Below, in pieces: positions 8,236-47,277 of a stretch of 64,000 nucleotides of DNA; the stretch's first letter is position 1, and each line of letters starts with the position of its first letter. The notes under the pieces are model-generated. The model was not told the origin of the DNA. It saw only the letters and a program-made list of their open reading frames with translations, and searched no databases. The stretch comes from Peronospora farinosa (Eukaryota > Oomycota > Peronosporomycetes > Peronosporales > Peronosporaceae): positions 124,001-188,000 of the forward strand of contig CANTFK010000822.1 in assembly GCA_947646735.1 (NCBI GenBank), read 5' to 3'. The translations under genes were made by a program, and so were the position numbers.

Positions 8236-8250
8236 TCACCCCCCCTCAAC
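8236..8250 (-). other. Polypurine tract of outer element
   Basis: On the minus strand GGTTGAGGGGGGTGA lies directly against the 3' LTR, the position and composition expected for priming plus-strand DNA synthesis. Confidence 0.75.
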
Positions 8251-8334
8251 CAACAGTCACATTAGTGACTGTTTAGTGACTATGGGAAAGGAGCACTTGT
8301 TGAAATTTTTTTTATTCCAACATTTTCTCGTTAT

Positions 8335-8555
8335 GACAAAGTCAATGCGCGTCGCTGCTAAGGCAGCTAAGAGCTCGGCTGCACGCCTGTGTGCACCCGC
8401 TACTGAGGCTTCACAGCCTCAGACAGCAGACACTAATGTGTATGATGGAAGTCAACATCAGCCTGCAACGCCTGTTGCAGGTTCACGTAGCGCTTCGCCA
8501 CGTGAAGATGTTGACCCAGAGTTAGTCGTTGACTACTCTGGTGAGTCGGATGACG
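8335..8555 (+). pseudogene. Antisense gene of outer element, 5' part
   Basis: Open frame from ATG 8335, antisense to the element's gag-pol, beginning MTKSMRVAAKAAKS. It has a basic N terminus then Ser/Asp-rich sequence. It is cut at codon SGESDD by the nested element; the frame resumes exactly after the target-site duplication at 20804. I do not recognise the protein. Confidence 0.6.
8552..8555. repeat. Target-site duplication GACG, left copy
   Basis: Matches gacg at 20800-20803 on the other side of the inner element. Removing the element and one copy rejoins the outer antisense frame. Confidence 0.85.
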
Positions 8556-9492: not shown

Positions 9493-9590
9493 GCTGTCCC
9501 CTGCTCGCTGGTCTTTCGAACTGCGGTAAGACCACGTGCACCCTTGTCCAAACTCCTCGAATTAACAGTAAGTGATCCTACGTCGCTCGG

Positions 9591-11856: not shown

Positions 11857-11904
11857 TCAGCTAGCTTTCTGCTCCAACGCTTTTCCCTAACTTCACGTTC
11901 CTTC

Positions 11905-12005
11905 TCTTTGGCCTGTATCCCTGTATCCCTGGGCTCCTGGGCCCCTGGGCTCCGGGGCCCCTGTACCTCCGGGCCCCTGGGCCCCGGTACCCCGGTGCCC
12001 TAATA
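11905..12005. repeat. GC-rich minisatellite between convergent inner genes
   Basis: Repeated ccctgggctcctgggcccctgg-type units separating the chromodomain stop (12147) from the antisense gene stop (11856). Similar units occur in both inner LTRs (about 9268-9318 and 20575-20625). Confidence 0.75.
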
Positions 12006-12146
12006 CTCTGGGCCTTTCACAATACTTCGCAATCTCTTTTGTGCTGTCGCACTCTCGAATATAATAACTTGACCCCCTTGTAAATGTATGACAAATACCG
12101 CCTCCTTCTTGCATCATCTTGGCCTTCCCAAGATGAACTCTCCCCA

Positions 12147-13939
12147 CTACTCTTCATGAATCTGCATTGCCTCGAATCGGTTCCGAGTAGCCTGCCTGCG
12201 CTCATAGTCCCTAAGCAATCCCCCGCAGTTGAGGTCCACCTCATCCACCCATGACGGGTCAGGATATCCTTTCCATTGTACCAGGTATTCACACTGGATC
12301 CGTCCGTACCGAGTTTTCCTTCCCATACGTCTGTCTAGAATCTTCTCCACTTCGTATTCATCCTCTTCCAGCTCCGCGACCCAACTGTCTTCTGGCAATA
12401 GAGCTTCATCAAAATCCACCCGGTTCGCTTCGTCTACCACCAACACCGTGTCTGGTCTATCCGGGTATTGCCGGACCAGCTTCAATTTTGACACGTGTAC
12501 CAACGGGTATATACGGTAGTCTGTTCCACTGATATCTAAACGAACGGCATAGTCACCCACCAGTTCTCTCACTCGGAACGGCCCGTGCCATAGATGTGCC
12601 ACCTTTCGAGCATACCCCTCCTTGACCCGGTCCAAGTATAACCAAACTTGGGACTCTACCTCAATATGACCATCAACCACCTCCTCATTGTGGGCCTGGG
12701 CTCGACTTTCCATCGCAGATCGTAATAATTCGTTGGCCTGTTCTCTCGCTCTGCGATACTGACGTTGTACGCTATATCGCCATCGACGGGGCTCACATTC
12801 ACGCCGCTTCGTGCTGCCTAACGGTATGGTGGCTTCTAGAGTACTTCGGGCATCCCAGCCATGTACCAAGAAAAATGGAGTTTCCTTTCGGATCCGGTCC
12901 TGGGCTGTATTCAACGCGAAAATGAGCCTTTCTGCATAGGCATCCCAGTCCTTCTGATCTACCTCGAACACATACATTTTGATGGACCGTGTAATGGTCT
13001 GTACCATTCTCTCTGCTGTGCCATTGGCCTGTGGTCGATACGCCATAGTCGCCCGCTGTTTCTGCCCAATGATGCGGTTGAAAGCACGAAAGAAATCTGA
13101 CATGAAACTGGGTTCTCTGTCGTGACGGATCGCCTCACTGGCTTCAAAACCGACGAAATACGCACTCTTCGTAACCTTCTGCCGCGGTTTGGGCCGACCT
13201 CGACGAACTAGCCTTGGCAATCACATATCCCGTAAACAGGTCCACCCAAATCAACAGCTTGGTATGCCCCCTTGAACGACTTGGGCAAAGATGGGATATG
13301 GTCCATCGCGATAACTTGGAACGGGTGGGTAGCTTGAATGTTCCCTGGACTTCTCCCTCGTAAGGTGGGGCCACCTTTTCCAGTCTCGCAGTCTACGCAA
13401 GTGCCAACATAGCGCTGAACACTCCGGAATAAGCCTTTCCAATAGAAATGTTTCCGGATCCGTTGGTATGTACGGCCACTTCCCTGGTGTCCCCCTTTTA
13501 GACTCGTATGGTAGTGGTTTATAAAGTCTTGTTGTAGACTTTCAGGTATAACTAGCCGAATCAACCCATCACGGTCCTCGTCTGCTGTTCCCTGGTAAGG
13601 GCAGTACAGAAGAAGATCGTCATCATCCAAAGCGTAGTTCATCCCAATCTTTCCACACGTAAATGCCACCTCGGCCGATAGACTACCCCAGTTGCCCCGT
13701 AGGTAAATCTTCAAATCACGTATCCACATCTCTTCATCTTGGGCTGCTGCAATTCGTTTGATTCTTATCCGTTGCACCACTTCCTCTTGCACGACTTCCG
13801 TCGGTATTCTGGATAGGGCCCGGGATCTCGTAACAGCTGTAACTTGCAATGCATGGCTCTGGTCCTTGGGTATTAAGAGCTCAGGTAGACGGTTGATCGC
13901 TTCAAGGTCCTTGAACTCTTCTTCCGGCACTATATCGAC
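12147..13939 (-). pseudogene. Inner element integrase with C-terminal chromodomain
   Basis: The HHCC region has GHQGSGRTYQRIRKHFYW and CVDCETGKGG. The DDE core has AMDHIPSL, RHDREPSFMSDFF and PQANGTAERMVQT. The core is broken by frameshifts near 13210-13350, where three frames must be combined. The C terminus reads GPFRVRELVGDYAVRLDI and then a chromodomain (VEKILDRRMGRKTRYG, EYLVQWKGYPDPSWVDE), ending at 12147. Confidence 0.85.
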
Positions 13940-14502
13940 ACCCTGTTGCTGGTGCAAAGCCACGTTAGCAAGTCGGTCTGCACTTTGGTTCCATTCGCGC
14001 TTCATGTGTAGAAACTTGTGAACGGGCCAGGACCTTAGTTTTTCCAGGGCCTTCGCCCGTCGTACTGTCAGGCCCTGCGCCTTACACTCGATTTCTCCTC
14101 GCATCTGTCGCACGACCAGGTTAGAATCTCCACACACTACTAGACGTCTACGCTCCAGGTTCTCCAGTAGAGGAAGCCCAACAATAGGCCTTCATACTCT
14201 GCCTCATTTACTGTCGCTTCAGTCAAATATCGGGAAGCAGCGGCGACTACCGTCCATTCCGGGAGTTGCCACACAATAGCACTGCAGGCTCCTCCCCCAC
14301 GCTTAACTCGTGCAGACCCATCGAAACTGACCACGTACAAGACTTCCTCAGGTTCGACTGTAGGAGGAACCACCGTGATAGCTTGGCGCGGATGTCTCTT
14401 GGGGGCGATTGAAGATAGAATAGAGTCCACATTTTCGCGAGGCGTAATGCTTGCCGCTAATGTCCCCATTATTTCATCTTCGCCCTTCTTGCACTTAACC
14501 AC
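13940..14502 (-). pseudogene. Inner element second RNase H (archaeal-type)
   Basis: A second RNase H follows the first: SFDGSARVKRGGGACSAIVW gives the first Asp, NEAEYEGLLLGF the Glu, CGDSNLVVRQMRGEI the second Asp and NQSADRLANVAL the last Asp. This order and spacing fits the archaeal-like RNase H known from plant Tat elements and, from memory, from some oomycete gypsy elements. A stop splits it near 14140. Confidence 0.72.
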
Positions 14503-14511
14503 TTCTAACGT

Positions 14512-15987
14512 TCATTGAGACAGGAGTGCAGCCCGGTTTCCAAGGCGACCTTGTAGACCCGGTGACCGGACTATCCACGCCAGTGTTGAGTGTCGGGTCA
14601 AGACCTTGATAGGTCGGGTGACCAATGACGTGTAGCAAAGGTCTAGTATTCGCAATAGCTCCAGCACTTCCTTGTCCACCAGCCCATAGTTGATTTTGTT
14701 TGGCTTCAAAGTCCGACTCGTGAAAGTTACCGGCATATACACCCCTTCATATTCCTGCACCAGGGATGCCGAGATGGCCCACTCGCTAGCATAGACAATA
14801 ATGACGGGTTCCCGGTCTGGATCAAAATGGCGGAGGATTGGGGCAGTGGCGATCTTAGTCTTTAACATAGCAAATGCTACCTGCACCCGGGCCCATCGGT
14901 CCTCCTCCTGGTCATCTCCCTGTATGTCCCCAGTCCTGCTTATCCGGTTCGTAATACGTGGTAATATACTCCTTTAGTTCGTACAGGATGGATGCATAAA
15001 TGGCGTAGTCCTCCAGGAACCGACTGTAATAGTTGAGAATCCCGAGAAACGACTACATAGCTTTCAGGGTAGTGGGTAACGGTAAGTCCACCAAGGACTA
15101 TAGGTCTTTAGGGTGGACCTCCAGCCCTTCCGCTGACACTTGGTGGCAAAGGTAATCTACCTTTTGACAGACCCATGAGCTCTTAACCGCGCTGATCGAT
15201 AAGTTCCACTTGTCACACACCTCCAAAAGTCGTTCCACTTTCACGCATAAATCATCCCATGACTCCGAGGTCACCATAATGTCGTCGATTTAGGACCTAC
15301 GTCCTTCTTGAGGTCTCCCTCGGTATGGAACACCTCGAACAGGTCCTCTGGTTTGTCAGAGCCCGGCTCTGAAGAAATCGTAAGAAACCCATATAAAGCA
15401 TTATCCAACAGCGGCTGATAGATCTGCGGCGCATTCTTCAGTCCAAACGGCATTCGTCTCCACTCAAAAAGTCCGAGCGGGGTTACAAACGCCGAGATTA
15501 AACGGGCTCGTTCGGTCATACTGACCACCCAAAAACCGCTAGCCATATCCAGTGAGTACCACAGGGCCTTATCTAGGTCTTCCAACAGCTCATTCACGAG
15601 AGGCATAGGATACACCATAAGCCGCGTTAAATCATTCACCATCCGGTAGTCAATGCACAGCCTTATATCCACCCCATTCTTCTTGACAATAATTACAATT
15701 GGACTGGCCCATGGGGAGGTGGAATGCTGGATTATCTTGGATGACAAGAAACCTTTTATCAGGTCTTCCAGCTTCTCCCTAAATTGAGGGGCCACCTTCC
15801 GTACCCGTTGGGCGATTGGGCGCGCGTTCCCAACATCAATGTCGCACACTGCTCCTCGAGCCGCCGGGGGTAATGCGTTACCTTTTCCCATCAGCAAATG
15901 TCGTTTTCTCCATATAATCTGACGGAGGCGGTCTACCTCCTCCTTTGGAGTATCCCCGGGGTCTGAGATCTGGATGTCTTCCAACAT
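14512..15987 (-). pseudogene. Inner element reverse transcriptase and first (degenerate) RNase H
   Basis: RT is clear: DIRLCIDYRMVNDLT, MPFGLKNAPQIYQ. At the catalytic box (about 15268-15295) the minus strand reads stop-I-D-D-I-M-V in one frame: the Tyr codon expected before IDD is TAA, and the upstream frame is also shifted, so this copy cannot make active RT. Further stops follow in the thumb and connection region. The RNase H at 14512-14886 has VYASEWAISASL and LTRHSTLAW where active enzymes have DAS and TDH, so two catalytic Asp are replaced. Confidence 0.82.
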
Positions 15988-16102
15988 AACTTCGTTCGTG
16001 GATGGGGTGACCTCAGGAATAACAGACCATTTTTTGTCGATATCCTCGGCACATAAGTTTCCACTCTCGTGAACACAGACCTGGTCATCAGGAGTATCTA
16101 CT

Positions 16103-16630
16103 TCAGCCTTGATAATCGGTGGACCCCCCCTCTAGGTGGACCCTCTCCATATCGGTCCTATCCCTCGATGAGACTTCCGTGCCCACACTAGCTCCAGTTG
16201 GTTGACCTCCATCGAGGGCCTCCCTTCTAGACTCCTGATCTGATGGTAATGACTCAGGGTCCCTCATAACAGACTCGTGCACCACGTTAACCACCGGCAC
16301 TTGGGTCCCCATCCGTAGCAACATCTTCTGTGGAGTTGTGTACTGAGGTTTCTCGACCATCGGACCTTGGTACACTTCTTCTTGAGTGGTTTCTGCATCC
16401 TCCTCGTCGGTGGTTGCTTGGTAGGCTAGATTTTTCCATTCAGCGTACCTCCTAGAACCAACTGACACGAACCCTTGGGCCCGGGGAACCCGGTCCTTAG
16501 CCAGCCAAATGCCCAGCTTGGTATCCTCGTGTAGGATCAGGTCCTTGTCACTCACATTGGTGACCCTCAAGAATTGGCGATGTCCATTTCCTTGGATCAT
16601 CGTAGTTACCCATCTGTCTCCACGGGTCAT
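16103..16630 (-). pseudogene. Inner element protease-RT linker
   Basis: Open segment (RGDRWVTTMIQGNGHRQFLR ... KLGIWLAKDRVPRAQGFV) resembling the region between protease and RT in gypsy pol. No catalytic motif of its own. Confidence 0.55.
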
Positions 16631-16674
16631 CCATAATTTCCACTGGTCCGACGTAACCCTCTTCAGCGGAACCT

Positions 16675-17478
16675 CTACATATTTGTCGCAGGTAAACTCA
16701 CGTATTGGCCCAATTTTACCTCAGACATATGGCCACTATACAAGGTCTTGCGACCTGTCAGCTGGATTCGAACTTCGTCTGGCAAGCAAATAGTTCCATC
16801 CGCCATGTCCAAACGAATTCCAGCTGGCACCATAAAGTCCATCCCTAGTAGCACATCCTGGCCGGTCATGGACCCGACCCACACATTGAAGAAGTATACT
16901 AATACACCATTCAGTGTTATCTTGATCTTCGTTCGCCCTTCCGTGGTGTAAACTGCTTCTCCAATGCCCACGCACTCTTGTTTCTCGCTTGTGTTAATCT
17001 GGCAGCCTGCCTTACGAGCAAAGGCGATATACAAAATAGATATCTCGGCACCAGAATCAAACAGTAGATTTGCACGAATATTGTTAACTTTCCCAGAGGC
17101 CTTGGCTTGCTTAAACCACTTCCCTGGGGCATGGTTTTTCCAGTATCCTCTTGACTCTTCCGGCAATAAATCCAATGTCATCATAGTCTCTACTCGGGAA
17201 TAAACATGAGGTATATATGCATTGGCCACAGCAGCAACAGAATTAATGCAAAAGCCCAATGTATTTCCAATCAATTCATCCAACTTATTGACCTTTTCCA
17301 TGGGGTGTTCGTCCACAAATGCACAAATGCAACAATTAGAACGCTCGGCTCGTACCAGATTCAAACCTGGCGAGCGTTCTAATCTAACATCTTCTCCGCC
17401 GCCTCGGGCAGCTGCCCCGCATGCTTGGTCGGGTTGTACCACTGGCGAATCAGATTGTAGAACTCTTCCATCGGGCAC
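16675..17478 (-). pseudogene. Inner element aspartic protease
   Basis: The motif LLFDSGAEISILY gives the DSG catalytic site, followed by DVLLGMDFMVPAGIRLDM, the usual hydrophobic-hydrophobic-Gly motif. The frame is open across the domain. It sits between the zinc knuckles and RT, as in Ty3/gypsy pol. Confidence 0.82.
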
Positions 17479-19862
17479 CAGCCGACGTCATGAACCTTGC
17501 CACAACCGCGACACACAAACAGGCAGTGGTCGGCTGGGTGACCCTTCCTTCCACAGCACTCGCAAACGAGCCGCTTCCAACAGTCCAGATCCCCATGCTT
17601 CCTAGACCCACAATGGGTACACTTTGTCGCGGGTGTCCCTGATACCACCTTTTGTCCAGGTCTCTCTGCCCTGCGTCGACTTCGGTCTGGGTCTGGGTCC
17701 TGATGATCCCGGGGGTCATCTGCGTTCCTCGCCCTGCCAGTGTAGGGCTTACTCGCCGCCGCATAAATCCTTCTGAGGTCACCTTATCCCTCAGACCCAC
17801 TGGAGCTGGACCCTTGGTCATTTTCACTTTCAGAAGTGGATCGGATGACTTGGACGGGTCTCCTCAGCTGACTCTTGGTGTGGCCTGGAGTGGTTGGGGT
17901 CTTCTGACGAAACTTGCTGGACCCGAACAAGACCCTTCCTTGACGCGTCTTCGCTCTCTGACGAGCCTGCAGGACGTTCTCCAGGTCATCTGCATCAGAA
18001 AGTCTGAGCAATGTAAGCTGGTTCGCTAATTCTCGATCATCCAAGGTCTCCACGTAATGATCCACGTGTTCACGCTTTACACTGGGGGGACCACCCTTAA
18101 TATCTAGCTTGGCCCTGAGCCCTGCCACGTTCAAACGGTACAAATATTCTAAGGGTGACTCATCGGCTCTCTTTCTGGCGTGATAATATTGTCGGGCCAC
18201 CGACACCCCCAAGACGCAAAATTGTGCTTGGAACTCTCGCAGAAGCAGCTTCCAATCGACGCGTACCGTTCGACCTAGCTGTCGATACCAATTCTGAGCT
18301 GGACCCGTGAGCAGGGACCCAAAAATGAGACACTTCTCGCTGTCTGGTGCCTGGTCTCGGAGGAAAGCCGTCTTTACCTTAGTGCTCCAGCTTCTGGCAC
18401 GATCTTCATCGTGGTCACTCCCGCTAAATTCCTTCAGATTCGACGAGGCCGATACCCTAATGTGTGGAACAACAGTAGGGGGGTCCTCCTGCCGTAGCCG
18501 CGGCCACAGTCGCTCGCGCTGAGGTCATTGGGAACGCCAAGTCATCTGGGTCGTATTCATCATGGGTTGACCCCACAGATTCCATGTCCACATCAGGGAT
18601 ATCGCCTAGTGGTCCTAGGCGCTCAATTCGCTGGGAGGACCTGGGATGAACTGGTCCTTGACCCTTCGTGGTGTGTCCCCTGTCCACTGCAACTTTTGCG
18701 GAGCCTTGCTCTTCAAGGAACTTGGTCATCGCCTTATCAAAGTACGGCTGGAGTGCGCTAGGTGGAACTGACTCAGCCTTTGTTTCCTGATCCGTTTTTG
18801 TCCCCATCAACCTTGGCTCCACTTTGCACCGGGCTTCCGTCTCCTCCTGTGCTTGGCGCTGGACCCATGGGGTTGCTGTGTCCACATGGCCAGCTTCGCG
18901 AATTCGTGCTTCTAACAACGCTGCACCAGCTGGACCCAGTTGCATTCGGTCCACCGTATCCATCAGGGCCGACATCATAGATGAGGTGGCTGATTTGTAT
19001 TGAGACCTTGGTGACGATTCACCGAGTGACGTAGCAGGAGAGCCCACACCAGGATCCACTACTCCTCCATCTTGACGGGGTACTTCCTTCGGGGGGAACT
19101 CTCCCACTAACGTCTTGAGGTGACCATGCAGGGTCACTAGGGTCTTCTTCAAGGTCTCGAACCCGAAATCGAAGAGGGTATCAGCGGTAAAGTTCCCAGC
19201 ATCCATCCCAGCTTCATGTAGCAGATTCATTACGGCCTTGAGGACCTCCAGGTCTGTGGTCGTGGTGGGAAGAGCGTTATCGGACCGTGAACCTGGTCCA
19301 TAAGCTTGACCTAGAGCGCCTTCATCACCGGGTCCTTTCGGAGAAACTTCTTCAATTTATTCCGATGGTAGGCTTCTTCCAAATCTTCTTCTGTCCAGTC
19401 CTTACTAGCCACGCCTTGGCTCTCTCCCGACTCGTCCGTCGTGTCTCCGCCTCTCGGTGCCTTCAACTTGGTATGCTTCTGCTTCTTTTGCTTGTTCTTG
19501 GGCACCTTTGGCTCTTGAGTGGTAGGTTGGGAGACTTGCTTCGGGGTCCCTTGTTTTTTAGCTTTCGCTGTCAAAATTGGGACCCCTGGACCATAATATT
19601 TATTATGGCCCATGTTATCTTTTTCAACGAAGACATAAGGGGGAGGATTTTGTGGTTTTTCTTCATATTCCACCTTGAACTCAATAGCAGAGCTCCTCCC
19701 CGGGCTCTGCATGTCCTCCGATCCTTCTTCCTTCTTGATCACTGGCGATCCGGTTTCCAGTGTCTTGGTCGTCCCTTGGTCTGTCTTGACCGTTATCTTT
19801 TCTTCTTCGTGGGACTCACGGTAAAATCCCGCTTCTCCCGGAGATCCGGGCACGCGCACCAT
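17379..19862 (-). pseudogene. Inner element gag with three zinc knuckles
   Basis: Begins at ATG 19862 next to the LTR. After an N-terminal charged region and breaks near 19311 and 18457, the gag core is seen at 17784-18450 (RQYYHARKRADESPLEYLYR, HYVETLDDRELANQLTLLRL), which is the retrotransposon-gag fold of gypsy elements. The C-terminal part (17379-17648) has Cys/His clusters CTHCGSRKHGDLDC, CECCGRKGHPADHC and CRGCGKVHDVGWC. Stops and frame changes split it into at least four pieces. Confidence 0.78.
19846..19861 (-). other. Primer-binding site of inner element, overlapping the gag start codon
   Basis: On the minus strand the 5' LTR ends CACCACA and the next bases are ATGGTGCGCGTGCCCGG. 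TGGTGCGCGTGCCCGG is the expected tRNA 3'-end complement. The ATG formed with the preceding A is the first codon of gag (MVRVPGSPGE). Confidence 0.6.
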
Positions 19863-20799
19863 TGTGGTGGAGTGGATTCTCAAACAAAGTGAGAGAACCA
19901 CAAACACACACAGCGCCGGACTGCCGACTTACGGAGGGGGTACCCCGATACCGTGTCGCGTCAACCTTGGGTCTCACCTTGTGTATCCGTCGGCTTGGCT
20001 GGTCTTGCTCCTCGTTAGACGCAGAAGACTTAAAGACTTGGTCTTTGTATAGGACTTGGACTTGGTGGTCCCCGAGTGGATATACTTCACTTGGGACCGG
20101 GTTTCTTGGGCTCAATCGACTTAGCCGAGAGCGATGCACCTGGTACTATGTACCCCTTTCGTGGCTGACTGTTCTTGGTCCTTGGACCCCTTTGTGTTCT
20201 TCCCCGTAGGGAAACCGCTTCCTGTAGCGGGTCGTAGAGTGTTGACACTTACTTGACACCTCAGGCCAACTATCCTGAGGTTCAACTTGCGTTGCTTGAG
20301 TCGTCTAACACCTGCTGGACGTCGGGGGGCCAAAGGGTATCCCGCCCGGAAGAGGTGAAGCGACGGAGAAGCTTAGGAGGGGCGCTTAAAGTTGCCACGT
20401 GTAATGCAAATTCGAGTGTGTTTATTTACCTTATTCTCTGTATGCTTTTCTTGCCTAACCTTAACCCTTTGATCTAGATAGTGCCCCGTGTGGACTCTTG
20501 GAAGAAGAACTGGCTCCATGTTACCTGCACTTTCTGTAATCTTCGATATTCTGTGTACCGATTCTGCACTCTCGGACATTAGGGCTCTGGGCCCCTGGGT
20601 CCCTGGGCCCCTGTACCCCTGGGGCCTGTGCTGACTCCGCACGTATGGGTCCTTATATTCTTAATACGGCGGGGCCTGGTGTGTGGTTGTAAATCCGCGA
20701 GGCCGGGTCGTGGTCACTCCCTCGGGGAAGTGACCAGAAGTTCTCTTGCTCTCCGTTCCATCTCCCTTAAACTCCAACTTTCCCTGGCACTTCACCACA
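19863..20799 (-). repeat. 5' LTR of inner element (937 bp)
   Basis: Direct repeat of 8556-9492 with TG...CA ends inside a 7-bp terminal inverted repeat, TGTGGTG/CACCACA. Confidence 0.93.
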
Positions 20800-20803
20800 G
20801 ACG
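20800..20803. repeat. Target-site duplication GACG, right copy
   Basis: Partner of 8552-8555. Confidence 0.85.
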
Positions 20804-22298
20804 CATCCGGCTCAAAGTCACCTGTTCCACTCCCGGGCTCTCCCCGAGGTGATACCTCGTCGTCGAATCTTAAGAAGTGGGATCGTGGTACATTGAGTGA
20901 ATTAATGTACCGTGAAATGTTCGGGTCGTCTGATTCATCAGACGACTCGCCAAACGAGTCGAAGGATAGTGACTCGGGTGGGGACGGTAAGGGTGATGTC
21001 AGTGCTTCTACTGACATCAATGCTCATAGTGTCGGTACTTCTGTTGACACTAATGCTCGTGGTGTCGGTACTTCTGTTGACACCACGCAGGAGGCTTTAG
21101 ACCGCAACGTATTACGTCTTGCTCCTGATCGCAAGCCATGGATGCTACCTAAGCATCTGCTTGATCGTTGGTCTGGAAAGACCAACGAACGGGTTTCCAT
21201 ACCGTTGTTTGATGCGTCAAAGCTTCACGGCCTTGACGCCAGTGCGAAGGACTTTCGCACTGAGAACGACTATTCCATCGATGTGTTTCTTGAACATCGA
21301 TGGTATGGCCCACACAAGAAGCGTGAGGCTGACGCGTTCCTCTAATCTTGGAACGCTTTTATCACCAACGTTTTAAACGTTGGGAAAGAGGCTTGGTCTC
21401 AAAGACTTTTTGCTAGCCGCAATAAGTTTGAGAAACGAAGTACTTCCGGTGCATGCTATCGTTTGCACCGGTTATCTAGAGAGGCAGGCCTGTTATGCCT
21501 CTCTTGGGGCGACCCATGCCCGGGGTGCCTGAGCACCTCGTCAAGAGCGCCTAAGGAGGCGTACCTCCTTACTGAGCCCTGGTGGAGGGCTCGCATCTCT
21601 TCTGAGATGCGTGAAGGGATTGCTACTTTGCAATCCCTTTACGAGCGCGCTGGGTGCTCGTTTTCCGATGGTCGTTCACCATCGGGTGCCCATTGTCGTA
21701 CTGTTCGACAAGGCCGGGAACGTCGGCCATCAGTTGGGCCCGAGGTTCCCAGCTATCCGCCGAAGGAGGATAGCCACGCCACCGGACGAGATAACTCGTC
21801 CGACGTCCCTTCACCTCTCGGTGCTTTAGTAAGCGTTTCACGAGGAAGCGCTTCCCACCATGGGATTCCACCAGCGGATGCGGTGGTGGAGGAAAAACCC
21901 TGTCCGATTCTTTCATCAAACTTGGCTGCTGAGTTAGACGGGTTTGCCTGTGTAACTCGTGAGCTACATTGTGATGTTGATCACGAACGGGATAAGCGTC
22001 GCCGCTTAGAGGACATTGTGCGACAGCTTGGGTTTGACAATGAGAAGTCTTGGGAAACAATGCTGTCGCACTATTGAAGAATGAACGGCGGCTTCATTCT
22101 CTAAGTAACGAGCTGGCGACAGCTCGTCAGGAGATCGTCCAATTCATGGGACGATCTCATCTCTACACGACCAGGTATCGAATCTGGTTAGTGAAAACAA
22201 GAATCTGAAGGGGATTCTTGAGAGTAATGGCTATCTTCGTCGTTCGAAGAAGCCGCGTACTGAACGTACGGACGAAGACGTCCCACGTAAAACGTAGG
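20804..22298 (+). pseudogene. Antisense gene of outer element, 3' part
   Basis: Continues the frame begun at 8335. It is acidic/Ser-rich, then a compact segment (WMLPKHLLDRW, SIDVFLEHRWYG), then an in-frame TAA at 21343-21345. The same frame continues open to 22077 (NERDKRRRLED-like coiled-coil sequence ending ETMLSHY). After two frame changes it still reads as coiled coil (LLKNERRLHSLSNELATARQ, then NLVSENKNLKGILES) and ends with a basic tail at TAG 22296-22298. Reconstructed length is about 570 residues without the insertion, with one nonsense and two frameshifts. It overlaps the chromodomain on the other strand. Function unknown; a Gag-accessory, Env-like or regulatory role is only conceivable. 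Confidence 0.55.
21623..22060 (-). pseudogene. Outer element chromodomain (pol C terminus)
   Basis: On the minus strand FLVKRLLKHREVKGRR and TSYLVRWRGYPPSADSWEP form a chromodomain, the targeting module of chromoviruses that recognises modified histone tails. It is separated from the integrase end by a stop and frame change. The plus strand of the same interval is also open and continuous with the antisense gene. Confidence 0.8.
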
Positions 22299-23946
22299 AT
22301 GCGTACGCATCCTGCGTGGCAACTCGATCGTGTATGCGTTGCATAGGCGGCGCAATACACGAAACGGGCCGATGTACTTGGGCAACAATTTATTGCTGCC
22401 CACGTTAGTCACTACATGTTTTGGTAGGTTTACTGTTGACAGTAAAACTAAATCACCTTCAATAAATGTCTGAGCATTTGCCCTTCCATTACTGTCTGCG
22501 TTTCGCTTTTGCTTATCCACCGCTTCTGCGATGGAATCTTGCACGAAACGGACTACCGCTTCACGAGTCTGCAGTAAATCCTCAGCTGACTCGTTGCTTT
22601 TGGCTGCAGTGCATTGTGAGTGCACTGCAGAGATATCGGTTACTAATTCAGCGAGAACATTACTGTTCTCACTCGAACGATGCTGACATCTTCAGCATCG
22701 CTATCAGTAAGAGCGTCATCGCTCTTACTTTCTTCCTCTTCACCGAAGTCGAATGGTACGACATCGATTACTTTCGCGTCGACCATAACGTCGTCGCGTG
22801 ATGAGCAAGAGCCAGATTGGTTCTCGCTCGAGCGAGTCCCTCCCCCTCCCATCCCCTTAAATTAGAGTCACCCTCTACTAAGGTGGGGACACGTGGATGG
22901 CGAAGGCCATTCACGTAGAACGGTGTATGCGTCGTGGACGCATGCACGGAGTTGTTGATGGCGAATTCGACCATTGACAAGAACTCACTCCAACTTGTAA
23001 ACGAGTGGACGTATCCTCGAAGAATCTCTTCGAGGACGCAATTGGCGCGTTCAGTCTGACCATCAGTTTCTGGATGGTCAGAAGTAGACATTGTGAGCCG
23101 TGTTCCAAGTGTTTGGAACACGGAACGCCAAAACTCAGCCGTGAACCGGGGGTCTCTATCGGACACAAGTTCACGGGGTAAACCGTGCAATCGAAAGATC
23201 GTATCGATAAACACTCGAGCACAGCAATCTGCTGTGATCGACTCAGATACAGCAACGCGATGTACCATCTTGTCTACAAACACGAGAATACCATTATTCC
23301 TGTGAGCGTCTTTGGGAAACCCAAAGACGAAGTCCATTGATACGGAGTCCCAGCACTCTGCCGGAAAAGGTAGAGGCTGCAATGGTGCACGGAGTGAAGG
23401 ACTTGGCTTCACTCGTTGACACACCTCGCAAGCACGCACGTACTTGCGCGCAAACTTATACTGGCGTGGCCAGTAAAAGTCGCGACTGACCGTGAGGTAA
23501 GTCTTCTCACGGCCGCGATGCCCACTTATTGGTGCATCTTGACATTCAAACATGCACCGTAACCTGATATCATGTTGTGGCGGTACAACGACACGAGGCG
23601 TGTCGTTGTTGACGGATGTGTAGTACAGTAAGCCGTCCCGCTGGGTGTATCGATCGAAAGAAGATCGATACATGGCAGGCAAGCGCTTCTTAGCTTGCGT
23701 GGATGGGTCCTTGAGATACTCCGTCAGGCGCACAAGATCATTATCTTGTGCGCATGCCCTTCTAATGTCGTCGATCTTACTTGACGACAAGACGCTGGTA
23801 CTCAGCGTGGCGACAGTGGTGTTTACATCACTGTCGGATTGCACAGTCGGCTCTAGGTCAGGCCGACGTGAAAGAGCATCGGCGACGACGTTAAGTCGTC
23901 CCGGTTTATACTCCACGGAGAAGTTGTACTCCGCGGAGAACGACAA
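22188..23946 (-). pseudogene. Outer element integrase
   Basis: Contains the HHCC zinc-binding region (ISGHRGREKT ... CEVCQR) and the DDE core: SMDFVFGFP, SDRDPRF and ETDGQTERAN supply D, D and E. The C-terminal part (22188-22625) has the gypsy GPFRVLRRLCNAYTIELP fold and ends about 22188. Frame changes near 22860 and 22640 break it. Nearly the whole region is covered by short inverted repeats. Confidence 0.87.
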
Positions 23947-23954
23947 TCATCTCG

Positions 23955-25349
23955 CTATTCGTTGCGAGAGGTGTGGACTATTTACAGCCGTGCGTAGTGA
24001 CGCATGGTCTGTATATACAATGAACGGTCTATCTCCTAAGCGATAGACGCGAAACTTAGCCAGTGCATACTTCATGGCAAGGAGTTCCTTGTCATGCACC
24101 GGATAATTGCGCTCGGCCGGTTGCAGCTGACGCGATTGATAACAGACGACACGCTATGCGCCGTCTGTATCATATTGTATTAGTACACAGCCGATTGCAA
24201 AATCACTGGCGTCACAGACCACATGAAATGGTCTGTCTTGATCGGCAATCGCCAATACTGGCGATTGCATCAAGCTTTGCTTGATACGTTCAAAGGAACG
24301 CTGACAATCAGCGTTCCAGTTCCACTTCACGTTTTTCTTGAGTAGACAGAAAGATGTACTGTCATTTCGGCGTAAATGCGCGAGTACGCCGCTATCCCAA
24401 GGAAATTCCTTAGTCCCTTGACATCGACTGGCACTGGCCAGTCGGTGATCGCCTTGATCTTCCATGGATCAGGGCGTACGCCGTTCTTTCCGACGATGCA
24501 CCCAAGAAGTGGTATTTCGCTAGCTGCGAATATAAACTTCTTGAGGTTGGCGTACAACTTATGCTCGCGCATAAGTGTAAGAACCTTACGGACGTGGAGT
24601 CTATGTACTTCCACGTCTGTTTTCCCGTCCATAGCTCGACTATGGACGAACACATCATCGAAGTAACTCGGTGCGAATTCGCGCAACGGTCTCAATAGAT
24701 GTGAAACACATCTATTGAATGTGGCTGGTGCATTACTGAGCCCTTGCGGCATCACCAACCATTCCCAGAGCATACCACTGGGAGTGCTTACTGCTGAGTA
24801 CGGGATGTTCCGTTCACGCATTAGGATTTGATAGAAACCATCCATCAGATCCATGGACGAAAAGATGGTACTCTTAGACATACCATCTATGATTACGTCC
24901 TTTCTCGGTATCGGCGTTTGCGCCGGTATCGTTGCAGCGTTCAACTTATTGAACGCGTGTACTATCCGTCACCCTCCTGTGGCCTTGTGCACACAGAAGG
25001 TCGGAGAGCTGTGAGGTGAGGTTGATTCCCTCACATGGCTCGCTGCTAGGCGATCAGCAAAGAACTTGTCGATCGCCTCGACCTGTTCCCGAGGCAGTGG
25101 CCACTGCTTCATGACACAATATTTTGTGCCAGGAACAAGGTCGATCTCGTGTCGAGTGCCTTTATCCTTAGGCAACTCGCACGGAACGGATTCAGGGAAC
25201 ACATCCTTGAATTCGACCAAATCCTTGTACAAAGGATTTGACTTCAGCGACTCCCAGGATTGCGATGTATATCGTTCAATCCGAGTCTTCTCATCAAGGA
25301 CACTCACGTCCTTTTGATGAGCTGCTGAGAACCCGTTCGTTCTCGGCAA
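23955..25349 (-). pseudogene. Outer element reverse transcriptase and RNase H (nonsense codons)
   Basis: RT fingers and palm are clear: FSSMDLMDGFYQILM, MPQGLSNAPATFNRC and the catalytic YFDDVFVHS (about 24640-24660), then RNase H with VVCDASDFAIGCVL and VYTDHASLR. Both polymerase aspartates and the RNase H aspartates are present. The frame is interrupted by TGA where Trp is expected before RIVHAFNKLN (about 24970), TAG after QYDTDGA (about 24154) and TGA for Trp before LSFSAEYNF (about 23950). A frame change between RT and RNase H is also implied. Motifs are intact but this copy cannot make the full enzyme. Confidence 0.85.
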
Positions 25350-25407
25350 AAACTGTTGCTGACCGAATGTCAGTCATGTAATCTTCCTCTGCGACGAGTA
25401 CATAGAT

Positions 25408-26447
25408 CTACTTGACTTTGCCACTACGCAGATAACGCAAGAAACTTTTAGGTTCTAGCGTAGGCAACTGAGTTATCTCCGAATTTAACTTCGGAGGCGC
25501 GATCAGATCAAGCGTATAAGCGCCTACGTTTGATCCGTCATGAACCAAGACGTTCAACGTCTCGGTTACTTCCTGGGGACTTATTCCCTCAGGGCACTGG
25601 GGACTTATTCCCTCAGTGATTATTTTTTGGGGACTTATTCCCGCAGGCTCGATAAAACTTGTTCCATCGACTTCCTCTAGCTGTGGTGGCGCAACCACAG
25701 CGAGATCCTCTACGATCAACTCTCCAGTTGATCTAGGATTACCGTGTTGCCGCTTCTGGGCAACCGGTTTACTCTTCGGTGAATGCTGCCCTCTAGGCGA
25801 GCATTCATGTCCCGGTCCACTCGACTTATTCGAGTGTTGAACCTTCGGCGCTGCCTGTGCTTGTGCACAGCTTCCGGCAGCTTGCTCCACAGCGTGACTG
25901 TCTGTCACGCTGAGTTCTTGTGCAGTCGTACTAACGACCGAACCACAAGTGAGGCCATCACACTCACTCGTAGTACATTCACGCGCTTGTGAACGCTCCA
26001 AGACGTTCATCAGATGGTCTCTGATGAACAAGCGACAGGCATCTTCACGGTTCGATGCTGCCATCTGACCCATGGCTCGTACCTTCTGAGCCATGGTAAT
26101 CCTAACATGACATCAAGTTTGTCATCCAGATCAAGTACGATGAAATCATCATCGTACTTTTTGCCTTCAAGCGTGTAGTGAATTCCCACTACACGTTTCT
26201 TTACTGTTACGGATGCGCCAGTTGCAAGGCGCGCCGTCATCCTCGTTGGAGGGGTCTCGCGCTCAACATATTTGAGCCTACGATCATCTAGCGATTGGCG
26301 TCGAACAAAGTTGTTCGAAGCCCCACAATCAACTAGGGCGCGAAGTGACATGTTCTTTGTCACTTCGATCTTCAATGTGATGAGGGATACCGCATCACTG
26401 GGAGCGGCAACACACAGTGACTTTGTGTTGGGAGCAACCTTCGTCAA
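25408..26447 (-). pseudogene. Outer element protease and linker region
   Basis: The protease segment (26010-26447) carries VDCGASNNFV, the DxG aspartic-protease motif of gypsy elements in its Cys form, followed by VMLGLPWLRRYEP, the usual ILG-like C-terminal motif. The frame then changes and a linker (25408-26094) runs to the RT. The linker contains three GISPQ motifs encoded by a repeated 19-bp unit (tggggacttattccctcag, about 25573-25650). The overlap of the two frames indicates a frameshift, so this copy is probably not translated as one polyprotein. Confidence 0.75.
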
Positions 26448-26497
26448 GAGTCCCGCGAACTCTCTTGACGTTGCTGGATCAGTAGGGCGCTCCGCCC

Positions 26498-27682
26498 CTA
26501 CTGACCCCGACCGTTTTTTGATGGTCCACCACGTTGTTGCGATTTCGCAGCAACGTGAGACCCACGTCTCTGGCCCTTCTTGGCAGACGATCGATCGTCA
26601 CTCCCAGTGTTACGAGACACTGGGCGTGGGGCACTACACTCATAAGCGTAGTGGCCCAACTTCTGACAGCGATTGCACTTTTGCAATCGATTGTACCCTG
26701 GAGAGCGAGGTCGCTCGCTCTCTACATAGGAGAGGTCCATTGGTTCTGAACCTCTGCCCTCCTGTCGTTTCGGTGGACGATAGGATCCCGAGTGGACGTG
26801 AGCCTGTTGTAGGCTAAAGTCCTCCTGTTCCGCTGCAGAGATCGCTTGATCCAGCGATTCTAGTTCCAAGCGGAACAGGTGGGTCTTAACAGGACCATCT
26901 GTCAGACCTTTGATGAACACAGTAACCTGCGTGTGTTCATCGATTGGTTTCAGTACGATACAGCTAACGAGGTATCGTACGTGTTGGGCGTAAGCGTGTA
27001 TATCACGCTTACCCTGCTTCAAATCCAGGAGCTCAGCCCGAGCCCTGAATTCGGCGCAAGGCGGTTCAAAAGTGTGTTTGAGCCGCGCCTTGAAGACGTC
27101 ATACGTTGGGAAAACGTATGGGTCGTGCAGTTTGAGCCCTAAGGCCCAAGCTTTGGCACGTCCTGCCAAGTTCGCCATGCCGAACTTGACCTTCATCGCA
27201 TCGTCATCGATGCGACGAGCCTCAATGGCATCGTCGAGCTCGACGAACCATCTCAACAAGGAGTCGCTTTCGACTGCCTTGTACTTGGAGACATCAATCT
27301 TCAAGTACTCGGGTCGACGCGTATACGTCGACTCGGCAGCAACAACACTCGCCTGCTGTTGTCTCAACACTTCAGACTGTTGAGCACCCTGCTGCATCAA
27401 CAAGTCAGCTTGTTGAGCGCCTTGTTCTCTCAACAGGTCAACCTGTTGAGAACCTTGCTTCTCTAGCAAGGTGAGTTTCTTTACAACTTCGTCAAGTTCA
27501 TGTTGTATGAACTTGGCGATGGTTGCATGTTGGTCGTCTCCGCTAAGAGAGAGCAACATGGCACCAACGGCAGGGTTGCCGATGGTTTCAGCCATACGCT
27601 GAACCGCGTTCCATTCGAGGTCACTCAAATGGCGGAAATCATCACGCGTTGCGTGATGACGTTCATCACCCGCTGATTCCAT
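26498..27682 (-). CDS. Outer element gag with CCHC zinc knuckle
   Basis: Capsid/nucleocapsid polyprotein of the outer retroelement. The frame opens right after the primer-binding site; the first ATG is at 27682. Residues from about 70 hold repeated short Gln-rich units (EKQGSQQVDLLREQGAQQAD), followed by a gag core with LLRWFVELDDAIEARRIDD and WALGLKLHDPYVFPTYDVF, and near the C terminus a CCHC knuckle CNRCQKLGHYAYEC. The frame is intact to its stop at 26498. Pol follows in another frame, so pol is either reached by ribosomal frameshifting or is a broken fusion. Confidence 0.85.
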   Translation of the reverse strand: MESAGDERHHATRDDFRHLSDLEWNAVQRMAETIGNPAVGAMLLSLSGDDQHATIAKFIQHELDEVVKKLTLLEKQGSQQVDLLREQGAQQADLLMQQGAQQSEVLRQQQASVVAAESTYTRRPEYLKIDVSKYKAVESDSLLRWFVELDDAIEARRIDDDAMKVKFGMANLAGRAKAWALGLKLHDPYVFPTYDVFKARLKHTFEPPCAEFRARAELLDLKQGKRDIHAYAQHVRYLVSCIVLKPIDEHTQVTVFIKGLTDGPVKTHLFRLELESLDQAISAAEQEDFSLQQAHVHSGSYRPPKRQEGRGSEPMDLSYVESERPRSPGYNRLQKCNRCQKLGHYAYECSAPRPVSRNTGSDDRSSAKKGQRRGSHVAAKSQQRGGPSKNGRGQ

Positions 27683-27711
27683 AGCGGATGGTGCGGTGGT
27701 CGCTGAACGGA

Positions 27712-27727
27712 CCACGAAGTGCTACCA
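27712..27727 (-). other. Primer-binding site of outer element
   Basis: On the minus strand the 5' LTR ends ...ATTACA, followed by CC and then TGGTAGCACTTCGTGG. A TGG two bases inside the LTR is the usual complement of a tRNA CCA end. The exact tRNA was not identified. Confidence 0.65.
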
Positions 27728-27729
27728 GG

Positions 27730-28187
27730 TGTAATGGGACACCCTCCGACTATACTGATTACAGTATAGTATACTTTCACTGATTAAAGTGAAAGCAGGT
27801 GCCTCAAAACCTCACGTACACGTGAGCAGAGGAAGCTTATCAACTAAACAACGCTTAGTTGAGAGGAAAAAGAAAAACTGTATTTAATATAGTTAATTAT
27901 CTAATAAAACTAATCGGTTATAACCTATGTTAAGTATATTAAACTACAACTATGTATGTCGACAACTTGCCCTCCACTCATTGCGCGCGTCCATCGGTCA
28001 TTGGTCAGCGCGTTGGTTGATATAATGGCCCATATCAACCAATGTGAGGGCATCTCCAACTTCAAGGAGATCTAGGGACAATATTATAAGAAAAGGTAAT
28101 ATTGTCAAAATATTATTAGTTATAATAATATTTTTATTGACTCTTCATATAAGTGTCAATATTATGTAACGGGCTCACCCCGTTACA
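27730..28187 (-). repeat. 5' LTR of outer element (458 bp)
   Basis: Direct repeat of 7778-8235 with the same TGTAA...TTACA termini and the same hairpin chain. Promoter and polyadenylation signals for the element should lie here. Confidence 0.93.
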
Positions 28188-29471: not shown

Positions 29472-29558
29472 CCATTGTTTGGCTGTTCTTGCGCTCGAAT
29501 TACAATAAGACGCGCTACGTCTTATTGTAATTCGAACGCAAGAACAGCCAAACAATGG
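29472..29558. repeat. Foldback hairpin A, 41-bp arms
   Basis: Left arm 29472-29512 pairs with 29518-29558 with one mismatch around a 5-nt loop cgcta. The apex reads agacg-cgcta-cgtct. Confidence 0.9.
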
Positions 29559-29561
29559 GAA

Positions 29562-29614
29562 GTAATCGGTAGTTACAATGAGACGCGCTACGTATCATTG
29601 TAAATACCGATTAC
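29562..29614. repeat. Foldback hairpin B, 24-bp arms
   Basis: Left arm 29562-29585 pairs with 29591-29614 with two mismatches. The loop is again cgcta with the same gacg/cgt surround, although the stem differs from hairpin A. Confidence 0.88.
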
Positions 29615-30240: not shown

Positions 30241-31467
30241 ATGCTCATGGACAGCAAGGACTCATCGATTCGATTTGATGACATCGATTCTACATCGCAA
30301 ACCATTACGAAACGGCTTCGATCTTCTTTAATCCATGATGACATCAGTGCTGCACTTAATGAAACAAAGAGACCACGAGGAAGACCTCAGATGTCCGACA
30401 AAGCGGCGCTTACCGCTACTCATGAGCTTCGGTTGCTGAGATTGCAAGTAGGATCTATGGAAGAGGAGCTTCGTGGACTGCAATCGAAATGGCATAAACA
30501 TTTACCTGACGCACGCATATTGGCGACAGCAAAGCAATCGGCTCACAAGAAGCGTGCAGTGGCTCAAATTCAGGCAACACAGATGGAATTACAAGAAATG
30601 ATCTTACAGCAGCAACTAATGTTTGCGACGCTACAGACGGCCATCTTTCGTGCACCATTGCACTCAAGTGGTCAGGACATTCTCAAGTCGCTGCATTTCA
30701 ATACACAATTTGGACGCGATACAGTCGAGCGTAGCAAAACACTTATGGTACACAACGAACGGTCGCGCGCAACGGTGCCATCGATGATGAAACGGTTTAC
30801 TACCATGGCAGTAAACAAAGTGCTTGCCCTCCAAGACAAAGACGGCCCTGTAAACCGACCAATGCTACCGATATCTCAAATTGATGTCACTGGTTGCAAG
30901 GATTACACGCTCGTGTCGAGTGTTTTTATGTCAGAGATCCCGCATAGTTCACTCGAAAATGTGTACGCGGCTGCATTAGCATATCATGACGCGATTTCGA
31001 CAATAATGAAACGTCACTTTGGCGTCAATGCAGAGCTCACGAGACTTAACAGCATTGACGCACCAGCAGCTTACTGGCTACTAGACCTCGATGGGGGTGG
31101 GATCCCATCAACCGTAAAACATATCATGTGCTCGGAACTGACTCCATCGCACGGAATGATACACCTGGACGCAGTCATCGATGATCCACTGCATCCAGTA
31201 TCGCAAACTAGCAAATTGAAATTTGGCATCTCTGGGCTTACGTTGACACCAAGAAAAGATCGAACGGGCAAAATTGTGGCTGTTACGCTGCGATGGGTAG
31301 TATTGTACCGCTACAAGATGTTGCCGGATGACCCGGCACTACGGAAGGACTTAGACTTGAACCGTCCTATTCTAAATGGTGATCTAATCACTGCTTCAGT
31401 GTGCACATATCTTCAGCAACTGAAACAACGGCAAAAGTCGGAAGGACATTCCAACAACAGTTCATAG
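30241..31467 (+). CDS. Oomycete coiled-coil family protein, copy 1 (408 aa)
   Basis: Single-exon gene from ATG 30241. N terminus polar/basic (KRPRGRPQ), then a coiled coil (HELRLLRLQVGSMEEELRGL) and a glutamine-rich helix (ELQEMILQQQLMFATLQTA). A conserved globular half follows, with GRDTVERSKTL, LTPSHGMIHLDAVIDDPLHP, TLTPRKDRTGK and a terminal LPDDPALRKDLDLNRPILNG. The same landmarks recur in the genes at 32154-33425 (-) and 35156-36726 (+). Resembles large oomycete-expanded families of uncharacterised proteins, some of which are annotated as M96 mating-specific-like; that link is from memory and unsure. Possibly a regulator with a leucine-zipper-like helix. Confidence 0.75.
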   Translation: MLMDSKDSSIRFDDIDSTSQTITKRLRSSLIHDDISAALNETKRPRGRPQMSDKAALTATHELRLLRLQVGSMEEELRGLQSKWHKHLPDARILATAKQSAHKKRAVAQIQATQMELQEMILQQQLMFATLQTAIFRAPLHSSGQDILKSLHFNTQFGRDTVERSKTLMVHNERSRATVPSMMKRFTTMAVNKVLALQDKDGPVNRPMLPISQIDVTGCKDYTLVSSVFMSEIPHSSLENVYAAALAYHDAISTIMKRHFGVNAELTRLNSIDAPAAYWLLDLDGGGIPSTVKHIMCSELTPSHGMIHLDAVIDDPLHPVSQTSKLKFGISGLTLTPRKDRTGKIVAVTLRWVVLYRYKMLPDDPALRKDLDLNRPILNGDLITASVCTYLQQLKQRQKSEGHSNNSS

Positions 31468-32153: not shown

Positions 32154-33425
32154 TTACAGAATCCTAGGCCTCTGCTGATGCTGTCGCTCTTGAATGTACC
32201 CGCATATAGTCGCTGTAAGCAGATCACCGTTCAGAATAGGGCGGATGATCTCCAAGTCGTCCTTTAGAGCCGGGTCATCCGGCAGGATGTTGTAATTGTA
32301 TACAACCATCCACCGTAACGTCACCGACATTGTCCGCCCCGTCACAGCTTCTTTACGAGGTGTGAGAGTCAGTCCACAGATTCCATATTTTGATGAAGTA
32401 TTTCTACAAACAGGATGCAGTGGGTCGTCAAGAATCGCATCGATATGTACCATTCCGTGTGACGGTGTCAGCTCGGAGCAAACCACAGTATTCACGATTG
32501 CAGGTAACCCCGCCCCATGAAATGTCGACCGACGGTACATTACGGGCGAGTCAACACTGTTAAGTCGGACACGTTTAGTATTGACATTAAAATGGCGTTT
32601 CATAGCCGTTGGAATATCGTCAAAGTACGCCAATACCGCTGCATGTACTTCCTCCAGTGACGTATGTGGGATCTCGGAAATGAAAATGCTTGAAATAAGC
32701 GTACAATCATTGCATCCTGTAATGTCAATTTGTGACAATGGCATCACCGAGTTGCCATGTTTTTGGCCAGTGTGCTCTGTAGCAACAGCTTTATCAATTG
32801 CCAACTGTGTAAACTTGTTGACAATTGATGGCAATGTTGCAAGAGAACGTTCTTTATGCGCGAAAAGCATTTTTTCTCGCTCATACGAATCACGACCAAG
32901 GTGCGTATCAAAGTGCAAGGCCTTGAACAATGCATGACCATTGGAATGAAGTGGTGCACGCAATACTGCCGTCTGTAATGTAGCAAACAATAATTGTTGC
33001 TCGAGCAGTAGCTGTTGCAGTTCATGTTGCACCGTCTCTGTTCGAAGCGCGCGATGTTTTTCTCGTGCCGAATGTTGCGCCAAACGAAACGTCCGTGGGT
33101 CAGGGAGTTGTGTGGTCCACTTGGTCTGCAACACGCGAAGCTCTTGTTCCATTGCAGCAACTTGGGACCGGAGTAATCGAATCTCGTGCGTGGCAGAGAG
33201 AGATGGAGCCTTTGTTGCGCGAGGGATGGGACATTTCGACCTATTTAGAGAAAACATAAGCTCCTCTCTGTGGTCTCCTTTGAAAGAGAGACGACGGCGT
33301 TTCTTAATGCTGCATCGATTCGAGCTGACGACGAGCTCTGGACTGTTTGAAAATGTGGAGCAGGTACGCAATTTCATGTCAGTTAATGGCGGTAGGATGA
33401 TGACGTTTGTTCGTTGTGCATTCAT
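32154..33425 (-). CDS. Oomycete coiled-coil family protein, copy 2 (423 aa)
   Basis: Single-exon gene starting at ATG 33425. N terminus MNAQRTNVIILPPLTDM, then a basic patch (KKRRRLSFKG), a coiled coil (HEIRLLRSQVAAMEQELRVL), a Gln/Leu helix (ELQQLLLEQQLLFATLQTA), and the family's conserved half (GRDSYEREKML, LTPSHGMVHIDAILDDPLHP, LTLTPRKEAV, LPDDPALKDDLEIIRPILNG). It is the closest relative of copy 1, in inverted orientation 0.7 kb away, so it is a local duplication product. Function unknown. Confidence 0.77.
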   Translation of the reverse strand: MNAQRTNVIILPPLTDMKLRTCSTFSNSPELVVSSNRCSIKKRRRLSFKGDHREELMFSLNRSKCPIPRATKAPSLSATHEIRLLRSQVAAMEQELRVLQTKWTTQLPDPRTFRLAQHSAREKHRALRTETVQHELQQLLLEQQLLFATLQTAVLRAPLHSNGHALFKALHFDTHLGRDSYEREKMLFAHKERSLATLPSIVNKFTQLAIDKAVATEHTGQKHGNSVMPLSQIDITGCNDCTLISSIFISEIPHTSLEEVHAAVLAYFDDIPTAMKRHFNVNTKRVRLNSVDSPVMYRRSTFHGAGLPAIVNTVVCSELTPSHGMVHIDAILDDPLHPVCRNTSSKYGICGLTLTPRKEAVTGRTMSVTLRWMVVYNYNILPDDPALKDDLEIIRPILNGDLLTATICGYIQERQHQQRPRIL

Positions 33426-47083: not shown

Positions 47084-47277
47084 TTTATTTGTGAATAAGA
47101 GACGCAATGGGTACTAGAGAGTAAATTGTAAAATGAGAGGTAGAGATAGAGGAGTGGGGTAGAGGATGGACGAGTGACTAGCAAGTTTGCGCAATGTGCG
47201 ACCTTCACGCAACACCGCATGGCTCCCACGACCGACCACATCACATTTACACCGCTCACGCGTCGTCACCAGTGAAC

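Follow-up and report, generated by a model that had tools for sequence, protein, structure and literature searches.

What maintains a retrotransposon whose coding sequence can fold, over some 7 kb, into one short hairpin after another? The question is raised by a 64 kb window (the whole stretch of DNA analysed; positions 124001–188000 of contig C220) in the assembly of the oomycete Peronospora farinosa (46.85 Mb in 274 contigs). On its minus strand the window carries a Ty3/gypsy long terminal repeat (LTR) retrotransposon, here called the outer element (7778–8555 and 20801–28187), which is split by a second LTR element, the inner element (8556–20800, minus strand). An initial annotation, made from the sequence alone, described the outer element as tiled with short perfect inverted repeats and attributed them either to a selected nucleic acid architecture or to repeated template switching. 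The tiling is genuine and very strong. We propose, with a probability of about one in two, that the outer element carries genome-scale ordered RNA structure (GORS) kept by selection on the folding of its genomic RNA.

Hairpin density and predicted folding

Our standard count takes perfect hairpins with arms of at least 8 bp and loops of 3–15 nt. By this count the outer element contains 85 hairpins in 8,165 bases (10.4 per kb), compared with six in the 12,245 bases of the untiled inner element (0.49 per kb), which served as a control, and with two in 7,777 (0.26 per kb) and 12 in 35,813 bases (0.34 per kb) of the two flanks. Between 20801 and 27800, 97 hairpins with arms of at least 7 bp and 70 with arms of at least 8 bp were found, against 5.6 and 1.1, respectively, in 20 dinucleotide shuffles. 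All eight hairpins that had been quoted as examples lie where they were reported. For the example stretch 21478–21804 the dense tiling holds, but the 13 consecutive hairpins reported become 11 non-overlapping perfect ones with arms of at least 5 bp; nine have arms of at least 6 bp and seven arms of at least 7 bp, close to the eight or so claimed for the last class within 324 bp. Base shuffles of this stretch (500) give 2.98, 0.96 and 0.24 hairpins for arms of at least 5, 6 and 7 bp, in keeping with the stated chance expectation of well under one for the longest class.

The excess (arms of at least 7 bp) is confined to loops of up to about 15 nt and has its maximum at 4 nt: 44 hairpins have loops of 3–5 nt (1.0 expected), 36 loops of 6–10 nt (2.2 expected), 13 loops of 11–15 nt (2.0 expected) and 11 loops of 0–2 nt (1.1 expected), with little excess beyond. 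Since a physical hairpin needs a loop, the rarity of loops of 0–2 nt relative to those of 3–5 nt counts in favour of structure in RNA. In L011, another copy of the element from the same genome, the 4-nt loop is again the commonest (28 of 109 hairpins), the longest perfect arm is 12 bp and 121 stems with at least eight pairs cover 44% of the internal region (6.95 kb), giving the many sequential short-range stem-loops by which GORS is recognized. Hairpin centres cluster about 28–40 nt apart; strict periodicity is not claimed, because the best period beat the 95% point of a null model (random placement of rods) in four of 14 tests. Rfam gave no match in the window at gathering scores.

The density also stands above codon-shuffled controls. 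Codon permutation removes the signal (arms of at least 8 bp) from each reading frame of L011, namely pol (41 hairpins versus 1.21 after permutation), gag (19 versus 0.51), a third frame (14 versus 0.49) and an antisense open reading frame (ORF; 26 versus 0.94), while six host reading frames have one hairpin in total against 2.2 after permutation. The LTR of L011 contains seven hairpins, compared with 0.11 in base shuffles.

Predicted folding was compared in 300-nt windows with codon-permuted controls. L011 pol folds 44.9% more strongly than its control (12 windows, range 32–61%) and the integrase region of the 64 kb window 36.2% more strongly (three windows), whereas the excess in three host genes is −2.5 to 2.1%. 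Folding above control thus extends along L011 pol as it does along viral genomes with GORS, although codon permutation differs from the shuffling used for the viruses. In 150-nt windows with dinucleotide controls, z scores are −6.1 and −5.6 for L011 and −4.6 and −4.6 for the copy in the 64 kb window; 21479–21778 (minus strand) reaches −8.7 as RNA and −10.5 as DNA.

Copies and related families

The family of the outer element (family A) has at least 40 copies in this genome: of 1,126 preliminary candidates 40 were scored, the window copy among them, and every one matches at 94% or more. Of 20 regions fetched, 14 yielded the near-full copies of the main alignment and six entered later variant counts as 11 fragments; the shorter cut-outs L001–L008 were left out of copy counts. 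With the window copy there are 15 near-full copies, which carry 68–89 hairpins each (arms of at least 8 bp), from 68 in the window copy to 85–89 in L009, L010 and L011, the three copies closest to the hub of a star-like pattern of divergence. Tiling is a family trait, being present in all 14 of the other near-full aligned copies, and 75 of 101 distinct hairpins recur in at least 12 of the 15. Variation per column, dominated by singletons, is equal in arms (0.0123) and elsewhere (0.0134), and inserted copies therefore simply decay, neutrally. Scans of viral contigs and of bacterial and archaeal contigs found no DNA relative of the outer element.

Fifteen further loci of the same genome (L029–L043), chosen from the best-scoring matches and not randomly, group by DNA similarity into families C (seven loci), D (seven) and E (one). 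Fourteen have 6–16 hairpins with arms of at least 8 bp per locus, against 0.4–0.83 in shuffles; L038, with one hairpin against 0.53, shows no excess. Over 895 shared residues family A is 57–60% identical to C, D and E, and C is 78% identical to D. Codon permutation (arms of at least 8 bp) gives 19 hairpins versus 1.48 for C, 23 versus 1.49 for D and none versus 0.48 for E. Families C and D are tiled less densely than A, and E and the inner element lie near background; the trait therefore varies among related families within one genome. Family E, represented by L046, has LTRs that are 99.8% identical and all 40 of its scored copies fall at 95–100% identity; it is a recent burst without perfect hairpins, yet it folds 10% above control.

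Retention of pairs between families was judged against a null model in which protein and codon exchange pattern are kept constant, with gapped hairpins (three to 20 per comparison) omitted. Hairpins of C keep 131 of 211 pairs in D (110.1 expected), with five of 27 fully paired (0.26 expected; p < 0.001), and hairpins of D keep 158 of 267 pairs in C (138.0 expected), with seven of 33 fully paired (0.34 expected; p < 0.001). Double compensation is seen between these two families, whose branches are long, as in the change from GTTCTTGG/CCAAGAAC to GTTCCTGG/CCAGGAAC. Among the other seven comparisons the sole nominal excess over the null model is that of A hairpins in C. Pairing is conserved above expectation between C and D and mostly not conserved between A and C, D or E. 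The retention between C and D, exceeding as it does a null model with protein and codons fixed, favours selection on RNA pairing.

Selection on pairing and its alternatives

Variants were tallied in 26 rows of family A, comprising the 15 near-full copies and the 11 fragments from six further loci; fragments from one locus were taken as one copy in by-copy counts, and one L020 fragment belongs to a neighbouring element. Singleton variants in arms are unbiased (76 G·U-forming, 85 A·C-forming). Variants present in at least two rows number 32 G·U-forming and 12 A·C-forming in arms, compared with 89 and 82 outside them (odds ratio 2.46, p = 0.017). Counts by copy show a depletion, among shared variants, of pair-breaking changes in arms (odds ratio 0.58, p = 0.013) and of A·C-forming changes alone (0.42, p = 0.008), while G·U-forming ones are not depleted (0.90). 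The direction of both effects was preserved in all 18 re-analyses, the depletion reaching p < 0.05 in 15. Paired sites thus change less, as in GORS, among shared variants, whereas singleton-dominated variation is equal. Depletion of shared pair-breaking variants with sparing of G·U-forming ones points to selection on genomic-RNA pairing in the lineages that transpose.

We therefore favour a model in which both the coding and the LTR parts of the genomic RNA would be selected for local folding into a string of some 100 short hairpins per element, predicted to span about 25 nt each with up to 12 perfect base pairs. The property maintained would be mainly the pairedness of the RNA and less so the identity of the bases that pair, because most hairpins differ between families while stem-breaking changes are under-represented, and G·U is tolerated, in the replicating lineage; copies, once inserted, would decay neutrally. 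We infer that the hairpins form in the RNA of the cell. A likely benefit would be to shield the RNA from host RNA silencing and similar attack that is specific to single strands or to sequence, a function suggested by RNA viruses (the available text of PMC3950689) and by stem length. Self-folding may in addition prevent sense–antisense annealing of transcripts, which we propose because both strands fold equally and an antisense gene is present. Stems this short are poor Dicer substrates. Only tentatively do we extend the model to a passive shield against silencing made of about 100 hairpins below Dicer length, spread over the LTRs and the genes of both strands, with both strands self-folded against annealing. 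This would be a case of GORS in a carrier other than an RNA virus, its mean strength exceeding the viral genome means quoted below and its hairpins largely different among several families of one genome.

Several observations weigh against selection on genomic-RNA folding. Transversions in arms show no significant depletion (odds ratio 0.81, p = 0.57), and the G·U bias attains p < 0.05 in nine of the 18 re-analyses and falls short of it in the other nine. Fixed mismatches in L011 stems (eight G·T, 16 A·C and 17 other) show no G·U excess, contrary to what selection on the sense RNA alone predicts. Neither D nor E retains hairpins of A significantly, and C does so only weakly (p = 0.012 in one comparison out of nine). 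Hairpin-rich C and D fold no better than untiled E (excess over codon permutation 8.8, 9.0 and 10.3%, respectively; 16.5% for the antisense strand of E), and in 150-nt windows their z scores against dinucleotide controls are only −1.0 (C) and −0.7 (D), with −1.8 for E. GORS is expected to be specific to the genomic strand. The outer element lacks this specificity: the antisense strand of L011 pol folds as well as the sense strand (47.1 versus 44.9%), and no clear strand bias was found in loop bases, closing pairs or special tetraloops.

A somewhat unlikely alternative joins two processes, template switching generating the hairpins stepwise and selection on RNA folding then keeping them. It accommodates the purging of pair-breaking variants together with two features of family A. 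Compared with randomly chosen positions, changes specific to A are distributed more one-sidedly between the two arms (p = 0.022, n = 22; p = 0.028, n = 52), as where CGTCCATAG is retained in C and its partner arm replaced. Replacement of a residue conserved across C, D and E is also more frequent in the arms of A (19 of 83 versus 37 of 335, p = 0.007). The evidence for switching nevertheless amounts to p values of 0.007–0.03 from a single family, with no such sign in C and D.

Template switching might also have acted by itself, with the reverse transcriptase of the element or DNA replication locally overwriting one arm with the reverse complement of its partner, the hairpins having no function and the proteins merely filtering the surviving events. 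Besides the one-sided changes and replacements in A, this explanation draws on arms that are perfectly Watson–Crick and strand-symmetric with few G·U pairs, on the tiling of the noncoding LTR and on a mechanism already described (in the available text of PMC8794818). However, the arms of C and D have changed evenly (p = 0.97 and 0.96), multi-step replacements are not enriched in arms (five of 19 versus 14 of 37) and the replacement excess fades to p = 0.098 with C and D alone as reference and to p = 0.19 and 1.0 when the focal family is C or D. Copies of family A show one Watson–Crick double change among 456 changed pair cells, and arms do not exceed 12 bp. Nor does switching alone predict the sparing of shared G·U-forming variants. 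We consider it unlikely as the whole explanation; as the origin of the hairpins, template switching remains a rival. Between the two causes first put forward, the shared variants and the C–D retention favour selection, and the signs of template switching are mixed.

Less probable again is selection on both strands or on single-stranded complementary DNA (cDNA) in place of genomic RNA, which might for example hinder annealing between sense and antisense transcripts or shape cDNA synthesis. The equal folding of the two strands and the symmetry of mismatches and loops agree with it, and the antisense gene family is real. Opposite gag–pol this gene encodes 588 residues (L011:508–2274, plus strand), open from a methionine in L009, L010 and L011 and broken in L014 (four copies examined); relatives occur in P. 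effusa (79–93% identity) and, in number, in P. matthiolae, among the best 120 of 194 matches. Its remains in the window (20801–22077, plus strand) comprise ORFs 20746–21345, which starts within the inner LTR, and 21463–22077, and neither piece has a Pfam match. A sense–antisense explanation could account for the strand symmetry, but shared variants favour pairing on the genomic strand and tiling is equally dense without the antisense gene (12.1 per kb, versus 15.6 per kb with it) and so is not confined to it. Finally, base composition, codon usage and overlapping reading frames are ruled out as the cause by the persistence of the excess against dinucleotide, codon and base shuffles and by the density of the LTRs (15.2 per kb) and of stretches where just one strand carries a gene.

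The element, its setting and known systems

The tiled stretch is wider than the 20804–27729 first delimited. Tiling within those limits holds, but it continues into the 5′ LTR (27730–28187, minus strand), which is 98.9% identical to the 3′ LTR (7778–8235, minus strand), into the latter and into the internal piece left of the inner insertion (8236–8555, minus strand), which has a polypurine tract adjoining the 3′ LTR. The internal region to the right (20801–27729, minus strand) contains 95 perfect hairpins with arms of at least 7 bp and 68 with arms of at least 8 bp. Minus-strand reading frames match Pfam families for gag (26498–27715; Retrotrans_gag, 2e-11), protease (26010–26447; RVP_2, 1.6e-08), reverse transcriptase (24327–24944; RVT_1, 6.7e-22), integrase (22768–23946; Integrase_H2C2, 5.5e-16, with rve under the cut-off) and a Tf2-1-like SH3 domain (22188–22625; SH3_Tf2-1, 1.9e-15); LTR pair, gag, protease, reverse transcriptase and integrase identify a Ty3/gypsy element. 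The chromodomain that had been assigned to it was not found among nine scanned ORFs, the SH3 domain being present instead, and the Pfam Chromo match sits in the inner element, whose LTRs (8556–9493 and 19863–20800) are 99.25% identical. By eye, a putative primer-binding site, TGGTAGCA, lies 2 bases past the 5′ LTR and a G-rich polypurine tract precedes the 3′ LTR; no identical 5-base repeat was seen within the 12 bases inspected on each side of the element's two ends. The gag, pol and SH3 coding stretches of L011 overlap, each in a frame of its own (407, 1280 and 413 codons stop-to-stop; 22188–27715 of the window, minus strand), which suggests two frameshift junctions.

Among the best 120 of 3,575 matches listed, the closest named proteins to the integrase come from P. 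effusa (91–92% identity), with P. matthiolae proteins also among the nearest. Like other Peronospora Ty3/gypsy elements, the outer element has gag, protease, reverse transcriptase, integrase, SH3 domain and LTR pair; the P. effusa and P. matthiolae relatives are known here from proteins alone. Protein P0113, an integrase 62% identical to that of the outer element, is recorded for Aeromonas veronii from a contig of 1,189 bases and probably represents oomycete contamination of a bacterial assembly.

Elsewhere in the window, a palindrome with 18-bp perfect arms (29495–29535) and a similar imperfect one (29573–29603), both outside the element, are perhaps a small inverted-repeat transposon. An inverted pair, 65% identical (30608–31385 and 32221–33001), overlies ORFs 30241–31467 (plus strand) and 32154–33425 (minus strand), neither with a Pfam match. 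Short internal tandem repeats, 78–86% identical, occupy 5593–5815 and 10753–11066, and the host genes listed include aconitase and glycerol-3-phosphate acyltransferase at 44981–47107 (minus strand) and 54636–57413 (plus strand).

GORS is known from positive-strand RNA viruses (PMC7642675, PMC3950689). The available text of PMC7642675 quotes a folding excess of about 15% for SARS-CoV-2, 7.5–10.7% for hepatitis C virus and a maximum of 23.4% among vertebrate RNA viruses; local peaks exceed 50%. The outer element resembles these genomes, as far as the same sources describe them, in its sequential short-range stem-loops across coding regions, its folding above shuffled controls and its short duplexes (rarely more than 14 bp in viruses, at most 12 perfect base pairs here). 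Pairings are poorly conserved between relatives in the viruses; here this agrees with the comparison of A with C, D and E but not with that of C and D. It differs in its carrier, an oomycete LTR retrotransposon with gag–pol domains and not a persistent positive-strand RNA virus; in its mean excess of 45%, against viral genome means of 7.5–23.4% obtained with different shuffling controls; and in stems that are almost wholly Watson–Crick, with both strands folding equally. The outer element works like GORS, falls outside its definition by carrier and is unlike it in strand symmetry.

Template-switch mutations, according to the available text of PMC8794818, create and maintain RNA hairpins, and the perfect reverse-complement arms, short loops (4 nt commonest) and C–D compensatory pairs, the last on long branches, seen here are similar; block overwriting is not clearly seen here, however, and G·U-forming variants are spared. 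Yeast Ty3, also a Ty3 element with folded RNA, has by selective 2′-hydroxyl acylation analysed by primer extension a well-folded core of about 20% of its genomic RNA, and the available text of PMC11381356 makes no mention of perfect-hairpin tiling of coding sequence. Judged by titles and the start of abstracts, none of the papers listed from the PubMed Central literature searched, with subscription papers outside its scope, concerns a hairpin-tiled retrotransposon. The initial claim of novelty accordingly stands for retrotransposons within that literature, but not for the closely similar GORS described in RNA viruses.

If selection shapes the RNA of this retrotransposon into hairpins along its length, folding would be a general way for parasitic genomes to cope with RNA surveillance and would extend beyond RNA viruses. 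Because tiled and untiled Ty3 families coexist in one genome, they offer a natural experiment, open to direct comparison of small-RNA load, copy number and age. If instead the mutational alternative is true, the replication of the element would write palindromes into coding sequence at genome scale. Either way, the demands of protein and of pairing are satisfied jointly over about 7 kb.

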